Source of the DNA: a virus
Virus record (IMG/VR): IMGVR_UViG_3300009507_002841
Coordinates: 1-20,367 of that record
DNA: 20,367 nt
Reading direction: 5' to 3' (one strand)
Numbering within the stretch: position 1 is the stretch's first letter; each line of letters starts with the position of its first letter. Both the position numbers and the translations under genes were made by a program. The notes beneath the pieces were generated by a model. The model saw only the letters and a program-made list of their open reading frames with translations, was not told where the DNA came from and searched no databases. This document shows, one piece after another, positions 2,363 through 20,367 of this stretch.

Positions 2363-3088
2363 ATGACAATAGCTATTATAGATGGTGATGTTCTTCTTTA
2401 TCAATCAATGTGGGGATGTGTTACTATAGAAGAAGGACAAGAGAAGTTTAAAGAAGTCTTTGATGACGCTATGGAGTCTATGTTTGCTACAGACTACGTT
2501 ATGGCTTTAGGTGGACCTGATAACTTTAGACTTGATATTTTTCCTGATTATAAAGGAAACAGAAAGAAAGTTAAAGACTCAAGACCTAGCTGGTTTGGTG
2601 ATTTAAAGTCTTGGATTATAGACAACTACCCAGGTTCTATTCTTTCAGACAATTGTGAAGCAGACGATATGGTTCGTGTATGGGCTACACAGTGTAAAGA
2701 TTCAAACATTGACTTTATTGTTTGTTCTGTTGATAAAGACTTGAATTGTATAGTAGGTCCTCACTACAATCCTCGTACCAGACAGATTCTTAACATCTCT
2801 GATAACTATGCAGAGCGTTTTTACTGGGAGCAAATACTAACAGGAGACAGTACAGATAACATTCCAGGCATCTATAGGTGTGGACCTGTAAAGGCTAAGA
2901 AGATACTTGAAAATGCTTTTACTCGTAAAGAGTTGCAATCTGCTGTTTGTGTAGCTTACAAGGATTCTTATCAAGAACACGGCTACAGCCACCTTATAAG
3001 CAATTCACGACTTATACACATATGGCGTTATATTGATGACTACTTCAAGATTACTCGTGAGTTTTATGATGATGCCATCAAAGAATAA
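2363..3088 (+). CDS. 5'-3' exonuclease, FEN/PIN-like
   Basis: 241 residues, similar in size to T7 gp6-type or pol-I-like phage 5' exonucleases. Metal-binding motifs run in order: N-terminal IDGDVLLYQ (D7, D9), YKGNRK in the arch region, EADDM, SVDKDL, and then GDSTDNIPG followed by GPVKAKKIL, the helix-three-turn-helix that grips DNA. The reaction is metal-dependent 5'-to-3' hydrolysis of duplex or flap DNA. In T7-like phages it removes primers and degrades host DNA for nucleotides. GAAAGGAGC is a strong Shine-Dalgarno just before the ATG. It is the first gene after candidate promoter 1. Confidence 0.88.
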   Translation: MTIAIIDGDVLLYQSMWGCVTIEEGQEKFKEVFDDAMESMFATDYVMALGGPDNFRLDIFPDYKGNRKKVKDSRPSWFGDLKSWIIDNYPGSILSDNCEADDMVRVWATQCKDSNIDFIVCSVDKDLNCIVGPHYNPRTRQILNISDNYAERFYWEQILTGDSTDNIPGIYRCGPVKAKKILENAFTRKELQSAVCVAYKDSYQEHGYSHLISNSRLIHIWRYIDDYFKITREFYDDAIKE

Positions 3089-3533
3089 CACAGGCCACTG
3101 GTCTTCTTACAAGCCCTTTAACCCCTCTGAACACTTTGGTTTCTTATACTGCATACACAATAAAGAACATAAACGATTTTACTTAGGTAAAAAGCAGTTC
3201 TTTCACGGTGGCAAAAAGAAATCAAGAACTTACGGGAAAGAAATGGCTTGGAGGACTTACCAAGGATCCTCTGTTCATGTTAAAAATGACATTGAACAAT
3301 TAGGCGCTGATAAATTTGATTTTGAAATAATAGACCTTTACCAAACTAAAGGAGGTTTGTACTACAGTGAAGCTTTTCTGCAAATGTTAACGGATTCTAT
3401 GATCTGGCATTGTGACAAAGGAGTGCCTAAGTCTTACAATAGACAGATAGCAGCTATAAGGTTTGTTCCAAAGGAGATACCCACTGATAGAACAAGAGAC
3501 TATGCTAAAGAAATAAAGAGAAGATACAAATAA
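3066..3533 (+). CDS. GIY-YIG-like putative endonuclease
   Basis: 155 residues from the first of three consecutive ATGs at 3066, which overlaps the exonuclease gene; a more upstream ATG at 3033 is unlikely. After a ~24-residue leader comes GFLYCIHN ... RFYLGKKQF, resembling the paired GIY/YIG strands. WRTYQGSS and KFDFEIIDLY with a following helix (YYSEAFLQ) are typical of phage GIY-YIG-like Seg-type proteins. The canonical glycines are degenerate (LYC and YLG), so activity is uncertain. It may be a free-standing homing nuclease or a recruited structure-specific nuclease. Gene overlap suggests coupled translation with the exonuclease. Confidence 0.65.
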   Translation: MMMPSKNNTGHWSSYKPFNPSEHFGFLYCIHNKEHKRFYLGKKQFFHGGKKKSRTYGKEMAWRTYQGSSVHVKNDIEQLGADKFDFEIIDLYQTKGGLYYSEAFLQMLTDSMIWHCDKGVPKSYNRQIAAIRFVPKEIPTDRTRDYAKEIKRRYK

Positions 3534-10993: not shown

Positions 10994-11072
10994 TCTCTGG
11001 ACTCTCTCTAATTCTGCCCCTTGGGGGTGGTTTTAGGGGGAGTTCAGAGATACCCCTTTCTTTATTTTTTTC
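10994..11072 (+). terminator. Intrinsic terminator at the end of the early/middle module
   Basis: The outer arms are TCTCTGGACTC (10994-11004) and GAGTTCAGAGA (11040-11050), 11 pairs with one G-T wobble. CCCC and GGGG runs can nest inside. A T-rich tract (11056-11072, including seven T in a row) follows. Its place between the last small gene and the second promoter supports termination. Confidence 0.7.
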
Positions 11073-11162: not shown

Positions 11163-11513
11163 AGGGGGGTTGGGGGGTAGTAACATAAAAATAATTTCAT
11201 TGAGATAAACTTGGTAATAGCTTTAAGAGATTATCTTTTTATTTTGTTATTTTGTTTGTTTTTTATTTAATCAAACATAATGGTTTTTAAATGAATATTT
11301 TGTTTGTTATTTAGTTAACCAAACATAATGGTTTTTAGATGAACATTTAAATGAACCTTTAATGATACCATAATGGTTTTATTGAATAAAAAACTAAATA
11401 AAAATAATGACTTAGAAGAAAAAACTTATAAACTACAGAAAACAAACAAAAACTTTTTCAAACAAAATAATATCTTCAATATTGAAATAGTCAGAGAAGA
11501 AAAGGAATTCAAA
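11163..11513 (+). other. AT-rich leader before the small-terminase-like gene
   Basis: About 350 nt without a convincing gene. It opens with G-runs (AGGGGGGTTGGGGGG), then becomes very AT rich and holds the 48-bp repeats. From 11373 the reading frame of the next gene is open (M-V-L-L-N-K-K...), but this part is low-complexity Asn/Lys sequence without a ribosome site. It looks like untranslated leader. The bend-prone, repetitive, easily melted sequence could also suit a replication origin or regulator-binding site. Confidence 0.5.
11249..11344 (+). repeat. Two 48-bp tandem direct repeats
   Basis: 11249-11296 and 11297-11344 match at about 43 of 48 positions. Each contains GTTTGTT, a CAAAC that can pair back to GTTTG, and CATAATGGTTTTTA. 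A third partial copy (CATAATGGTTTTATTGAAT) begins at 11368. The differences spare both the GTTTG/CAAAC arms and the CATAATGG box, hinting at conserved binding or structure. Confidence 0.75.
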
Positions 11514-12835: not shown

Positions 12836-14201
12836 ATGGAAATTGATTTACATGAAGGTCAATCCGAAGTCATCAACGATTTATTTATTGAGAATGCATG
12901 TCGCTACGCGGTAGTGAATGCTTCTCGCGGTCATTGACCCCCTTGGTTTTTACTGAGGGGGGTTATTTGGATTTGGAAAGAGCTACCTAGCTGCTACAGC
13001 GGCGATGATTGCCGTACAGGAGTTAATGGAGCTACCCGCAGAGGTGCCTAATAAGAACGTAGCACTAATCTGCCCCACCTACTCACAGAGTGTGGATATC
13101 TACTACCCCCTGATAGCCTATCAACTAGGCATGGCAGAGTATGCAGAGAAGCATAGTAAAGCTGCTGGACACTTCTGGTTCCCTAAGAACGTCAACCTTA
13201 AGCTATGGTCTTATGAGGCTAGTGAGAGGATGCGTGGTAGTGGTCAGTACTTTGTTGTTTGTGATGAGGTCTGCTCATGGAGGGGTGCTGGTACTAGCCT
13301 TAAAGAGTCTTGGGAGTCTGTTATACAGCCCTGTGTTTCTACTAGGTGGAGTGAGCAGAACGCTAACCGCTGGGGTGCTAACCCTGGGAAAGCTTTAATA
13401 ATAAGCACACCAATGGGTTTTAACTACTTCTATGATATGTATAATAGGCAAGACACAGATAATCACTGGAAGAGCTATCACTATACCTACCATGATAGCC
13501 CCTATTTAGATGAAGAAGAAATTGATAGGGTTAAGCTCACGCTAGACCCCCTAAAGTTTGCTAGAGAGTACAAAGCGAGTTTTGAAGACTCAGGAAACAA
13601 CGTGTTCTATACGTTTAATCGTAAGGAGCATATTAGTAAATTACCCTATTTTGAGAAAGAAGAAGATGTTCATGTAGCCATTGACTTTAACGTTGGCATT
13701 ATGGCTTCTGTTATTTTTGCTCTAAGAGGTAACCAGATACACATTATAGACGAGATGCAAGGTCATCCCGACACAGAGTCCTTGGCTAAGACGCTAAAGG
13801 AGAAATACCAACACCACAAGATAACCGCCTATCCTGACCCTAGTGGTAGGGCTAGGAAGAGTTCTGCGGCTGTTGGTAGGACGGACTTCTCTATTCTTGA
13901 GAGCGCAGGTATTACTACCAGAGCGCACCAGAAGGCTCCTCCTATTATAGACAGTGTAGCCGCTGTGAATAAGAAGTTCAAGAACGCTAATGGTGATATA
14001 GACATGTATATTCATCCTAAGTGTGTTAATACAATCAAGTCCATTGAGCGTACTCAGTGGTTAGAAAGTAATCCAGATACCGCTACTATTGATAAGAAGG
14101 AAGGTGTTGAACACTGGACGGATTCAATACGGTATGCTGTTGAGTATCTCTTCCCAGTACGTTCTGGAACTAAAACAACAACAAAAGGCTTCGGCTTTTA
14201 A
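12836..14201 (+). CDS. terL: Terminase large subunit, interrupted in the Walker A motif
   Basis: ATP-driven DNA packaging motor with a nuclease domain. The first part (12836-12931) encodes MEIDLHEGQSEV ... YAVVNASRG, then CAT and TGA (12935). The frame resumes at 12972 as F-G-K-S-Y-L-A-A-T and runs to 14201. Joining 12929-12931 (GGT) to 12972 gives R-G-F-G-K-S, a proper Walker A, and a 441-residue protein. Later motifs are intact: Walker B-like YFVVCDE, coupling motif ISTP, nuclease strands VAIDFN and YPDPSG, and DSIRYAVEYLF. ATG 13005 begins after the P-loop, so a protein from there would lack ATPase function. AGGA lies 12 nt before ATG 12836. How the break is crossed is not known. Confidence 0.85.
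12932..12971 (+). other. 40-nt hairpin insert in terL, possible ribosomal bypass element
   Basis: The insert begins CAT TGA and ends GGA. C38-C42 of the 129xx numbering pair with G57-G61, and T43-T47 with A52-A56 (two wobbles), giving a 10-bp stem at 12938-12961 with a TTTT loop. GAGGGG lies 10 nt before the GGA at 12969. The +1 frame has its own TGA at 12954, so a simple frameshift cannot cross it. Glycine codons flank the gap (GGT before, GGA at its end). Confidence 0.6.
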
Positions 14202-14913: not shown

Positions 14914-15405
14914 ATGCCTCGTTCAAAGATAACATCGGTATCGAAGGACGTCATTACTGATGACGGCACGATACTATTGTCCGTAATACACGGAGAACAG
15001 ACAAGAATAGTTGTAACATTAAGCTGGTTGACTAACCTTACTGGCTGTGAGATTAGCTGTAAGGTTGTGGAAGGCGATAACCAAGAAGGTACTGGCGCAA
15101 TCCCCACAGGTCCCGCAATGAATGCAATTGTTCAAGAACTAGCGATAATAGATCCAAGTGTTTCTGATAATCACTTTGAGTTAGTAATACCAGAGACTTT
15201 AATAGACAAGTGGCAAACCGCCCCTCAAGTTGATATGCCTATCTATGGCTTTATTGGGTTAGAGGTAAGAGACAACGGCGTTGGTATTCAACAACAAGTA
15301 TGGAAACCCATGCGCGGTCTTGTTCAAATAATGTACTCCCCTACCGAAGAAGAAGTAGCAGGGCGTTCCACGACTAAAACTATAAGGATAAACAACCATG
15401 TCTGA
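14914..15405 (+). CDS. Putative tail or fibre-base protein, 163 aa
   Basis: The ATG at 14914 is chosen because AAGGAA lies seven bases upstream; an earlier ATG at 14893 has no site. It is beta-rich: residues 12-50 ([28 protein letters not shown]) with [10 protein letters not shown], then [13 protein letters not shown]-like strands. This looks like the small beta-sandwich modules at the base of fibres (BppU N-terminal-like), but the match is only by eye. Its end overlaps the fibre gene by eight bases, so the two are coupled and may assemble together. Confidence 0.6.
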
Positions 15406-18400
15406 TTATACACACAACTCAACAAGCGCCTATCAGGTTGTTCTATCCAGAACAGGCGGTCAAGGTAGTAAAGGCGACTCTATTTCCGATATTTACATTA
15501 ATGATGATGGTGAGATGATTGTTGTCATTTCTAATGCATCGGGGGAAATAGTAAACGAAATTAATGTTGGTAAAATTGGTGAGCTAGCGGGAGCTGAGTT
15601 TCACTCTGATGACTTTATTGGAGACGGTGTAACTACTGAGTACACTCTGACAAAGACTCCAGGCAACAAAGACAACACTCAAATCTACATTGATGGTGCT
15701 TACCAAAACAAAGACGGCTACTCTCTTAGCAACAAGTCTGTTAATCTTTGTGGAGATACAGTGTCAGGTAGCTTTATTACCTTTTCAGAGGCCCCACCAG
15801 AAGGATCGCCTATTGAAGTAATGACTGCTTCTAACCTTAACATCATTGACTACCAAGCACGTCCTGGAGACAAAGGCGAGCAAGGTGAGCAGGGTGAGCA
15901 GGGTCCTCAAGGCGAAGAGGGCGCACAAGGTCCTCAAGGTGAAGAGGGTGAAAAAGGCGAGCAAGGAGATCAAGGTCTTCAAGGTGATGAAGGTCTTCAA
16001 GGTGAAGAGGGTCTTCAAGGTGAGCAAGGTCTACAAGGCGATAGCTTTGAGTATGAAGACTTCACAGAAGAACAACTAGAGTCATTACAAGGCCCTGCAG
16101 GTGATCGTGGTATTCGTGGACCTATTGGCCCTAGAGGACGCACTGGTGAAGAAGGTCCCGAAGGCCCTCGTGGCCCCCGTGGTTTTGAAGGACCACAAGG
16201 GGACGAAGGCGGCAGAGGCCCTGAAGGCGAAGAAGGTGTTCAAGGTGAAAAGGGTGATCGTGGAGAAGTAGGACCACCAGGACCTGCGGGTAGTGGCACT
16301 GGAGACGGACCCCAAGGACCAGAGGGACCACAGGGTATACCAGGCCCCAAAGGAGACCGTGGACCAGCGGGACCAGAAGGACCTAGAGGCTATAGAGGCT
16401 ATGAAGGACCACAAGGTATACAAGGTGAAGAAGGCCAACGTGGCGAAAAAGGGGAAGAAGGCGTACAAGGTCTGGAAGGACCAGAAGGACCGCAAGGACC
16501 CCAAGGTATACAAGGTGAAGGCAAAGATGGTGAAGACGGAGCGCCTGGGCAAAACGGTGCGGATGGACTTACTTCTGTAATAAAAGCTGGCACATGGTCT
16601 TATATTCCTGGAGACAACACACCAAGCAACGGTTGGTTATCTCTTGAGGAAGAAGATGTTACCGAAGATACAAACATTATTTATGTAAACAGCCAAGACT
16701 CAGCTGGAACAAAACATAGTTGGAACTCTGTACACATTGGCAACTACATTGAGCTTAATAAAGATTTCAATGATCGGGTTGTATTCAGGATCTCTGATGT
16801 TGATGATTCAAATATTCACTTTGCAGTTTTAACTGTTCTCTTTGAGTATGGTCAAGGTTCTTTTGAGAAAAACGACACAATTAATTTTGAAGTTTATTCT
16901 CCAAAAGGTGTAATTGCTTCTGATGACTTTGTCAGCACACACGGCGACACTATGGATGGTGCGCTTATTCTTAAAGATAATGACTTAACAGTAAACCAAG
17001 TAACAGTGGGCGCAGGCAAGATTCCTACCAATAAGAACACTATCGTAGGTAATAACGCTGGGACTACTGTAACAGGAACACACAACACTCTTATTGGTGC
17101 GGATGCTCGTGTAGTCAGTGAAGACGGAGACAATCAGCTTGTTATTCGTGCTGGTGGTACTAACTGGCTTGCTGGTTATGGACACCCCGAAGGGCTTGTG
17201 AAAGCAAGCGTTGGTTCGATCTACCTACGTACAAATGCTCAAGATGGCGAAGACATATTCTTTATTAAAGAGTCTGGCATAGAAGACGAGGGTTGGGTTT
17301 CACAAAACTCTAAGCTAACAAAGTTTGTTGAACGCCCTGATGCTTCTTTGCAAGGACAAGGAATACTTATCTATGAAGAAGAAAATAACAAAGGTGTTTG
17401 GACGACTTTAACTACAGATAACCTACCAACAAATGACTCAGTAACTCTTTCAAGGCTTAGTGGTGTAGAAGATTTAGCAACACAGCTACTTGTAAACCGC
17501 TACATTTTCGAGTCTATTGAAAAGTCTGATGCAAAGTTAGTAGATCTACAAAAGCAAATAAACACTATTGAATTACAAGGAGGCCCCGAAGGACCGCAAG
17601 GACTTAAGGGTAATGACGGACCTAAAGGCGATGACGGTGCTGCGTTTGAGTACGATGATTTCACTCAAGACCAGCTAGACTCCCTTAAAGGCGAGCAAGG
17701 CGAACAAGGTGAGCAAGGTGAACAGGGTGCTGGCATTCAAATTGCAGGTAGCATTGAACCTAACGAAGATCCTAATGATGTTAAGCCCAAGTATGATGCC
17801 CTACTAGACCCTGCAGGCAACGCTCTAATTGATCCAGATGATGGGTTCTTATGGGTATCCGATGGTGAAGACTGGATTAACATGGGGAGCATCCAAGGAC
17901 CAAAGGGTGAGGACTTTAAATACAGCGACTTTACTCAAGATCAACTTGATTCTCTCAAGGGAGAAGCAGGTGAGAAGGGCGAAGACGGCACTGATGGTGC
18001 TGCTGGTGCTGATGGTTCTGCCTTTACCTATGACATGTTCACTCCAGACCAGTTAGATGGTTTGAAGGGGGATGAGGGTCAAGCTGGTGCTGATGGTAAA
18101 GACGGTGCTGACTTTACATACGATGACTTTACTGAAGAGCAACTTGAAGACCTCGTCGGCCCTAGCGGTGACAAGGGTGACAAGGGCGATAGTGGAAGTG
18201 GATTGTTTCTCAAGAAAGGTGTTTGGAAGTATTCAACTGATGCATTCAACCCTCTCGACCCTATAAACCCTAAAGCGGGTGAATGTGGTCTACTAAACAA
18301 TAATTTCATTGACGAAGAGAACTCTTTCCGAATCAATGAAGAGGACTCTGACGGTGTGACACACAGTTGGGATCTGAAAATAGGCTCATTCGTTGAGTTG

Positions 18401-20367
18401 TTTATAGACGAAGATAACAACGCTACATATGAAGTTGTCGAGGATGAAGAGGATCATACGTTAGATTCTACCGTCACTCATTATAACTTAAAGTTTCAGA
18501 GTGGAATTGGTGAGCCTAAGAATGGTGATGAGATAAATGTTACTGTAACAGTAGGTATGGCTGGCGTATTAGATGCGGAAGAATTTGTCCTTCGTCCAGA
18601 AACAACACAAAGAGATGGTAGCTATCTTGTATATGCTGAAGATGGGGATGATGATAAGAAGTGGGTTGACCTCAAAGAAGCGTTTAGTGAGATAGAAATT
18701 ATAGAACGACTTGACAGCAAGGTATCAAAGTCTGGCGACACAATGACGGGCAACCTGATACTGGATCAGGCCACTCAAGTAAAACTTGAAACTCGTTTTG
18801 TTGATTCTGGAGAAAACAGTAATCTAAATCTACAGCGCGATGGTGAAACCAAAGTCTTTATCTGTGATGATGAAGTAATTGTGACACCGTATCTACAATT
18901 AAACAAAGAGGGCGTTGACGCCTATCATGCTGTCACCAAGAAATATGTAGACGACAAGGGTGAACACCTACAGCAAGAGATCATCGAACTAGAAGAAGAA
19001 ATAGACGCCCTAGCACCTACGCTGGAGAGAGGATCATGGCGGTTTAATCCAACTGGTTCTGCTGGTCCAGCCATGTTTGCTATGTACGCAGCGGGTACCA
19101 CTACTAGCGAGTATCCACAAGCAGATCAGGTATTTATAAACACCGTAGACAGTGACGGGACGCTACACAATTTCAATGACGTTGAAGTTGGCAGCTACCT
19201 TGAAATCTTCTCGCCAGATGATGGCGATTATGGTCTTTATAAAGTCACAGGTAAGTCTGACGAAACTGAGGGGGCAAACTCCTTCTGGATGTTTGACGTA
19301 GAACACTCACGTTCTAACCGTCCTATGTCCGATGCAAGTTTGGAAGATAAGTGTCGTGTTAAATTCTTTACCATAGCTGAAGCTACAGACCCTACTGCTT
19401 TTGTAATGAAAGCTGGCGACACCATGTCAGGCGATCTTAACATGGTAGGCTCAAAGGTAAAAACTCTTTTCCTAGACAGTGGTCAAAACTCAAACTTAGC
19501 AATTCAGCATGACGGAAATACAAAAGTATATGTTGGCAAAACTCAATCCGCATTTACGCACCACGTCAAATTAGGCAAAGAGGGCGTGGACGATGATCAT
19601 GCGGTTACTAAGAAATATGTTGATGATCTAGTAGGTGACATTGCTGAAGGTGGTAGCTGCGTAAACATTAATGGTGGTAAGCTATGTGCTTCCAATGCTG
19701 CCCCAAGTTGGGCTGAAGTCATAAAGAGCAATCCAAAAGTTTCGGAGCTTAAAGTATTAAATCACTACACTGATGTTCAAACAGCTACAGAGCCTTGTAT
19801 GTGTACGGCTAACTTTGATGGTGACATAAAATATTGGATTAAACCAGCCAAGGAAAATTTCTTTAAAGATGGTGATATTGTCTACATTAGTTATGTAACT
19901 GGCTCGTCAAAAGTAGAAGGTGGTCCGTACACAATCAAGAATGTAATTAGCACTGCTGATTGGAATACATTCTTTATCTTCGGTGGTCCACGGCCAAAAG
20001 TAGGTACAGAATGTTCTTTTTCTAAAACCAGTAAGTTTGAATTAAGTACAGATGGCGATGGCATTCGATTGGGTACGGAAACTCCAGACGGATACTACAG
20101 TTCGGGTTTTGTGTTTGGTGACTATTTTCACTATATATATTCTGACTACGCAAGCATAAAACATGACGCACGAGTACACTGTGAAACAGGTGTCGAGGAA
20201 ATAATATGGACTTTCCCATACACTCCCAATGGTTATTTAGACAATAGAACAACCATAAACGACACAGGTACTATCTACGTTAAAGCTAGAGACGTTATGG
20301 AAACATCGTCTGTATCAAACAAAGTGGTTACTGTTAATTCACGTCTGACCGAACAGGATAGAGTACA
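15398..20367 (+). CDS. Giant collagen-like tail fibre protein (3' end outside window)
   Basis: Open from ATG 15398 to the right edge, at least 1656 residues. A short N-terminal domain (to ~156) is followed by G-X-Y collagen-like runs from residue 157, broken by linkers. Five copies of a linker, aromatic-x-Y-x-D-F-T-x-x-Q-L-x-x-L (one with MFT for DFT), precede new G-X-Y runs. Three beta-rich modules of ~110-130 residues follow. Each is linked to GDTM-x-G-x-L, and two to [10 protein letters not shown], signatures of trimeric phage fibres. It probably forms a trimeric host-recognition fibre; collagen-like helix formation without hydroxyproline is known for bacterial and phage proteins. No strong ribosome site (AAGGATAAACAACC) precedes the ATG, implying coupling to the upstream gene. 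Confidence 0.9.
15866..16570 (+). repeat. Collagen-like G-X-Y repeat region
   Basis: First run: 20 consecutive triplets from 15866 to 16045, rich in GEQ and GLQ. Second run: about 160 residues from 16091, rich in G-P-x and G-x-R, with periodicity breaks near GSGTGDG and GEGKDG. Shorter runs recur at 17579-17640, 17687-17730, 17960-18015 and 18155-18195. The repeats create many spurious open frames on both strands. Confidence 0.9.

Follow-up and report, generated by a model that had tools for sequence, protein, structure and literature searches.

The large terminase gene (terL) analyzed here is interrupted within its Walker A motif by 40 nt which, judged by comparison with related phages, most probably (with a probability of about 85%) represent a noncoding gap that would be skipped by translating ribosomes and would belong to a mobile homing endonuclease/bypass cassette analogous to mobA and gene 60 of phage T4. 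We favor bypassing because it is the only reading that covers the interruption of an essential gene precisely between two Walker A codons, the two gap lengths with different frame relations but a single landing codon, the purifying selection that both coding flanks have undergone since the copies diverged, and the presence of a neighboring homing endonuclease gene as in T4. For decades, long bypassing in phages has been proven for T4 gene 60 alone. A literature search, the coverage of which was incomplete, returned no report of bypassing in the phage group concerned.

The terL reading frame is interrupted within the Walker A motif

The window, i.e., the whole stretch of DNA that was analyzed, comprises 20,367 nt and corresponds to an entire virus record. 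By its terminase it is placed near the group of the roseophages DSS3_VP1 and DSS3_PM1 (Noahvirus, Naomviridae), with a protein identity of about 70%. The reading frame of terL starts with the ATG at position 12836 and reaches the residues NASRG, after which it runs via CAT (12932) into the stop codon TGA (12935). The continuation FGKSYLAAT (TTT GGA AAG AGC from 12972) lies in the +1 frame and is free of defects up to position 14201 (Table 1). The insert sits precisely between two Walker A codons of terL, and not a single coding base has been lost.

Most of the gap is made up of one hairpin with a 10-bp stem and a TTTT loop. The motif GAGG (12955–12958) opens a G-rich tract which ends 6 nt upstream of the proposed landing codon; the GAG itself is located 11 nt upstream and within a stem. 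The original prediction had described the interruption NASRG-CAT-TGA with FGKS following 40 nt further on in another frame, and this was confirmed base for base, as were the stem, the TTTT loop, the GAGG tract and the GGA at the end of the gap. The stem–loop structure upstream of the take-off codon, the GIY-YIG-like open reading frame in front of terL, and the recurrence of the insert at a different length go beyond that prediction.

Table 1. Features in and around the interrupted terL gene (positions in the window)
Feature	Position	Strand	Remarks
GIY-YIG-like ORF, 93 aa	12550–12831	+	stops 4 nt short of the terL ATG; matched by PHROG 314 (homing endonuclease) with E 0.0025, residues 10–88
terL ORF1, 32 codons	12836–12931	+	MEIDLHEGQSEVINDLFIENACRYAVVNASRG; resembles the N-terminal start of TerL of relatives, which pass straight to FGKS
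High-identity, co-conversion-like tract common to L085	12851–12989	+	74/81 nt before the gap and 16/18 nt after it identical; rest of terL about 72%
5' stem–loop, 17 bp, −17.9 kcal/mol	12889–12927	+	ends 1 nt before the take-off codon; fold of the 48 nt ending at the take-off codon
Proposed take-off codon GGT (Gly32)	12929–12931	+	same in L085/L086
Putatively bypassed gap, 40 nt	12932–12971	+	39 nt in L085/L086; from the sequence and comparison with relatives
Stop codon TGA	12935–12937	+	second codon past take-off; same position in L085
Gap hairpin CCCCCTTGGT-TTTT-ACTGAGGGGG	12938–12961	+	stem identical in L085/L086, loop there one T shorter
Shine–Dalgarno-like G-rich tract GAGGGGGG	12955–12962	+	in the 3' arm of the hairpin; from the sequence; weak, putative element
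Proposed landing codon GGA	12969–12971	+	same GGA precedes TTTGGAAAR in L085/L086 despite the other frame relation
terL ORF2, FGKS (Walker A) to stop, 409 codons	12972–14201	+	intact; Pfam Terminase_6N above cut-off; 80–83% identity to relatives

The insert is absent from most relatives and recurs in a second lineage

We fetched 80 related IMG/VR loci. The site is covered by 72 of these; all 72 lack the insert and read uninterrupted through (A/G)(S/A/G)RG(F/W)GKS, and the annotated DSS3 phages gave no sign of a comparable insert. The stretch from 12932 to 12971 is therefore an insertion. Exact copies of the insert or of its hairpin were found neither in viral nor in genome contigs. The longest match elsewhere in the window does not exceed 13 nt, and no source was detected in the loci either. 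As for dating the insertion, no relative exceeded about 83% protein identity, and the bacterial genome contigs contained no relative of terL.

Two early scans for inserts between SRG and FGKS that started with other codons gave no match. In a degenerate scan the codons for SRG and FGKS were allowed to be 11–71 nt apart, and the version with GCTTCN revealed two more contigs, L085 (IMGVR_UViG_3300012522_001049) and L086 (IMGVR_UViG_3300025647_002779), in which a homologous insert occupies exactly this codon boundary. Both read GCTTCTCGCGGT CGATGACCCCCTTGGTTTTACTGAGGGGGATATTTTGGA TTTGGAAAAAGC at this site. Their insert comprises 39 nt; the loop is one T shorter, and there are five substitutions, none of which falls in the 10-bp stem. 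The gap of L085 is in frame but contains two in-frame TGA codons, and the codon between take-off and TGA is CGA instead of CAT. Common to both lineages are the GGT take-off codon, the TGA two codons on, the stem, the GGA directly before TTTGGAAAR, and the site itself. L085 and L086 stem from two different metagenome assemblies and do not differ from each other over 1330 + 1152 nt; no more than two independent cassette sequences are known. The question raised with the original prediction, whether the stretch is missing from related terL genes or recurs in them, is thus answered in both senses: it is missing in 72 relatives and recurs in L085 and L086.

A stable stem–loop structure precedes the proposed take-off codon

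Folding of the sequence up to the take-off codon gave a 5' stem–loop structure that ranks first among the 1407 coding 48-nt windows of the analyzed DNA (z −4.9). Its stability was reached by 6 of 50,000 synonymous variants drawn with the phage's own codon usage, and by none of 50,000 variants which used the codons of the relatives at each position. The codons forming this structure are rare in the window (CGC 7%, GCG 10%, GTG 10%). In 42 different relatives the same stretch folds with −2 to −13.5 kcal/mol, with the exception of the distant L053 (−16.4 kcal/mol). The stem is kept in L085 (−17.0 kcal/mol), where two synonymous changes turn one A-U pair into a compensatory G-C pair and one pair is lost.

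As a control we folded the T4 sequence (NC_000866). A 5' stem–loop was found in the same stretch before take-off, and the gap stem–loop included the take-off codon. The synonymous-shuffle score of the T4 5' stem–loop was not extreme, hence the score is supportive in the window and is no general detector. The start of ORF2 in the window is not unusually structured and forms no notable 3' stem–loop (z −0.3). The ORF1 peptide is like that of the insert-free relatives and does not contain KKYK; another nascent-peptide signal is possible.

The insert is associated with endonuclease genes and appears to be mobile

The open reading frame directly in front of terL is also matched by the UvrC/Cho GIY-YIG domain models (E about 0.01–0.04, residues 10–91). 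By these weak but concordant matches it probably encodes a homing endonuclease of which little more than the catalytic domain is left. The AlphaFold model calculated from the single protein sequence was discarded because of its low confidence (pLDDT 61). L085 carries a full-length GIY-YIG homing endonuclease gene at the same place, which overlaps the start of terL (PHROG 314, E 6.5e-13). Between the two GIY-YIG proteins there is weak similarity (pairwise BLASTP, E 0.003).

The window and L085 share 91% identity in the 81 nt before the gap, as opposed to 71% in the first 400 nt of ORF2. Such an identity in the 81-nt flank was not reached by any of 869 similarly diverged pairs of relatives. After the gap the identity is down to the background within about 25–30 nt. 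The TerL tree does not join the two insert carriers as sisters, and forced sisterhood was rejected (AU p 0.007). Taken together, the identity of the tract and the tree show the pattern that homing of a cassette with co-conversion of its flanks should produce. For mobA of T4 and its bypass sequence, homing with co-conversion of the flanks is the published explanation (PMC5009743). Of the features of the mobA/byp type, we thus find the adjoining endonuclease gene and the horizontal movement of the gap together with its flanks.

Homing endonuclease genes abut the start of terL in gap-free relatives as well, namely a GIY-YIG gene in L056 (2258–2908) and an HNH gene in L028 (1678–2070). Endonuclease genes have repeatedly landed at the start of terL. 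Group I introns are situated farther down terL in L077–L080, L086, and DSS3_VP1. The intron of L086 (1449–1700) has no counterpart in L085 (4395–4396), so that these otherwise identical contigs form a natural plus/minus pair; the introns of L078–L080 lie at about the same place in terL. In DSS3_VP1 (L082, 2902–4922) the terminase is annotated as split with an endonuclease VII gene inside, which overlaps a group I intron match, and the deposited annotation calls two terminase genes. Further endonuclease-like genes of the window are found at 647–1138 (HNH/endonuclease VII type) and at 3033–3533 (GIY-YIG of the SegE type); the latter overlaps the preceding gene (2363–3088) at its end.

Selection on the coding flanks and alternative explanations

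We compared the window with L085 in the 99 coding nucleotides of their common tract, of which 27 codons precede the gap and 6 follow it. There are 6 changes at 21.7 synonymous sites and 3 changes at 77.3 nonsynonymous sites (Fisher p 0.003); for the whole ORF2, pN is 0.15 and pS is 0.76. From the low nonsynonymous change in the tract it follows that both flanks were under protein-level selection while bearing the gap, provided that the tract moved as one piece. If the transfer was recent, the constraint on the remaining ORF2 would predate the insert.

This purifying selection since the divergence of the two copies argues against the possibility that the insert disables terL, either as a selfish endonuclease-linked insertion or as a mutation in defective genomes which rely on helpers or on a second terL. 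On paper, the frame and the Walker A motif are indeed broken, the 20-kb record does not include the remainder of the genome, and the horizontal spread of the tract could be selfish. However, ORF2 is intact in both lineages, the L085 type is found unchanged in two samples and has gained a group I intron in L086, and the codon choice before the gap forms the 5' stem–loop. We therefore regard a disabled terL as unlikely. A very recent loss of function, which had been a concern with the original prediction, is largely answered by L085 and L086: by its recurrence in these contigs, a recent inactivation of terL appears unlikely.

Removal of the 40 nt from the RNA, by splicing or by cleavage and ligation, would fit a group in which transcript processing is normal, as the group I introns in terL of relatives and of L086 indicate. 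However, a self-splicing intron cannot be accommodated in 39–40 nt with one hairpin, which is far too short. In agreement with the earlier statement that no group I intron fits into 40 nt, no Rfam intron match, and hence no catalytic core, was obtained for the window or for L085. We consider this explanation very unlikely.

Frameshifting, stop codon readthrough or internal initiation in place of a hop is highly improbable. The gap is decodable in principle and is in frame in L085. The window, however, needs a +1 shift, which meets the TGA at 12954, whereas L085 needs no shift and meets two TGA codons; since the frame relations differ (40 versus 39 nt), one frameshift or readthrough mechanism cannot serve both phages. 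As had been predicted, readthrough of the TGA at 12935 in the window yields an unrelated protein, and the obstacle at 12954 had been recognized, too. Any decoded gap would moreover add residues within the Walker A motif. Concerning internal initiation, neither phage has a start codon between the last in-frame stop codon and the Walker A motif; the first ATG comes after this motif, and its product would be devoid of Walker A in either phage.

An assembly or sequencing artefact, for which local errors at strong hairpins could be invoked, can practically be dismissed, since two other assemblies contain a homologous but non-identical insert at this very site and the 40 nt have neither a source in the window and loci nor an exact copy among the contigs searched.

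A hairpin scan that tolerated changes in the loop also matched two unrelated records, L087 (1934–1962) and L088 (3573–3600). A near-identical, terminator-like hairpin (TGACCCCCTTGG...CTGAGGGGG) is situated near or between genes there. The gap hairpin may have originated from a terminator-like sequence. That it acts as a transcription terminator in terL, as its resemblance to these hairpins could suggest, is a minor alternative, but the T tract is interrupted and termination here would silence terL.

Proposed course of the bypass

That the hop takes place, how efficient it would be, what each element contributes, and that the nuclease cleaves insert-free terL are all inferred. The peptidyl-tRNA(Gly) would leave the GGU at 12929 while CAU is in the A site and UGA is one codon beyond. 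The ribosome would slide about 40 nt, the tRNA would re-pair at the GGA at 12969, and reading would restart at UUU, giving NASRG-FGKS with an intact Walker A motif. The upper 7 bp of the 5' stem–loop would lie outside the mRNA exit, and the lower 10 bp could zip during the forward movement of the ribosome. Together with the gap hairpin, this structure probably drives the hop, as has been proposed for T4. The gap and its flanking codons would travel between phages as a cassette with the adjoining GIY-YIG homing endonuclease gene. At the same time, the gap would mask the conserved Walker A DNA against the GIY-YIG nuclease, which presumably cleaves insert-free terL. One point against the hop is that the matched GGU triplets within the gap (12945 and 12961) lead to dead frames.

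Comparison with known bypass systems

In the published model for T4 gene 60, sliding is driven by the 5' stem–loop, which exerts a pull on the mRNA as it closes (PMC5009743, PMC11194080). As in T4, a noncoding gap is situated in an essential phage gene, with 50 nt in T4 and 40 or 39 nt in terL (PMC5009743, PMC3014915, PMC11194080). Take-off is from a glycine codon with a stop codon shortly downstream, the gap forms a stem–loop, and a 5' stem–loop lies in the codons before take-off. Landing is at GGA in a similar A/T-rich context (T4 TTATTGGATTAGG, window TTATTTGGATTTGG); of the 479 GGA sites in the window, 5 resemble T4 equally well. A homing endonuclease gene lies upstream in both cases; that of T4 is defective, and that of the window appears to be reduced.

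Several features differ. The interrupted gene is terL, within Walker A, and belongs to another phage family. As the original prediction had pointed out, take-off and landing codons are synonymous and non-identical; in both lineages they are GGU and GGA, with only the first two bases matching, whereas T4 has GGA and GGA. A sense codon (CAT in the window, CGA in L085) stands between take-off and the conserved TGA. The 10-bp gap hairpin starts 6 nt after the take-off codon, in contrast to that of T4, which includes this codon. The KKYK nascent peptide and a notable 3' stem–loop are missing. The endonuclease is of the GIY-YIG type and its gene is directly adjacent to terL, while that of T4 is an HNH enzyme. 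Finally, the terL gap occurs in two lineages and at two lengths, whereas the relatives of T4 are without the gap (PMC3014915); according to a review of 2010 it is apparently absent from all other sequenced T4-related phages (PMC3014915).

The bypass originally predicted is thus supported by the comparative evidence, although two hallmarks of T4, identical codons and an adjacent stop, are not found. In our view the terL gap would work like that of gene 60, yet we refrain from assigning it fully to the T4 type because of the GGU/GGA codons, the stop one codon later, the hairpin being off the take-off codon, the lack of KKYK and of a notable 3' stem–loop, and the dead-frame GGU triplets. It seems rather probable that the terL insert represents a second, independent class of mobile bypass cassette. 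Such a class would need neither identical codons nor an adjacent stop, mRNA folding and local sequence would set the landing site, a frame-altering change in length would be tolerated, and GIY-YIG enzymes would have spread it into a packaging gene that is essential, at its most conserved codons.

Imperfect codon matches have precedent in the mitochondria of Magnusiomyces capitatus. Ribosomes there skip the short byp inserts, whose take-off and landing codons do not always match perfectly; these inserts differ in that 81 copies are present in mitochondrial genes with relaxed decoding, apparently independent of the mRNA context (PMC5009743). In Streptomyces phage Hau3 a terminase gene is concerned as well, and expression by bypass is proposed but unproven; by its description, that case involves a UUA codon and may serve regulation, and no endonuclease-associated insert is described (PMC5009743). 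In phage Corndog bypass was considered for a structural gene, that of the tape measure, next to an HNH insertion, but an alternative start codon is equally possible and no homologous gap is shown (PMC4351075).

The two diverged marine phages with their homologous gaps offer natural variation (40 and 39 nt, changes in the loop and at the base of the stem, a compensatory pair) for testing the requirements of the hop. Bypassing could be a recurring way for endonuclease-linked inserts to inhabit essential genes, beside introns and inteins. Gene finders would miss such genes; in the window the intact terminase resembles a pseudogene.

Other features

Upstream of terL, the relative L004 contains a gene (200–1411) that by eye resembles 5-aminolevulinate synthase, an unusual cargo for a phage. 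In the window, a tail-fibre-like gene of very great length (15398–20365), which contains Gly-X-Y stretches of the collagen kind, runs off the record. An intergenic direct repeat with CAAACATAATGGTTTTTA motifs is located at 11270–11350, about 250 nt past a strong hairpin (11001–11045).
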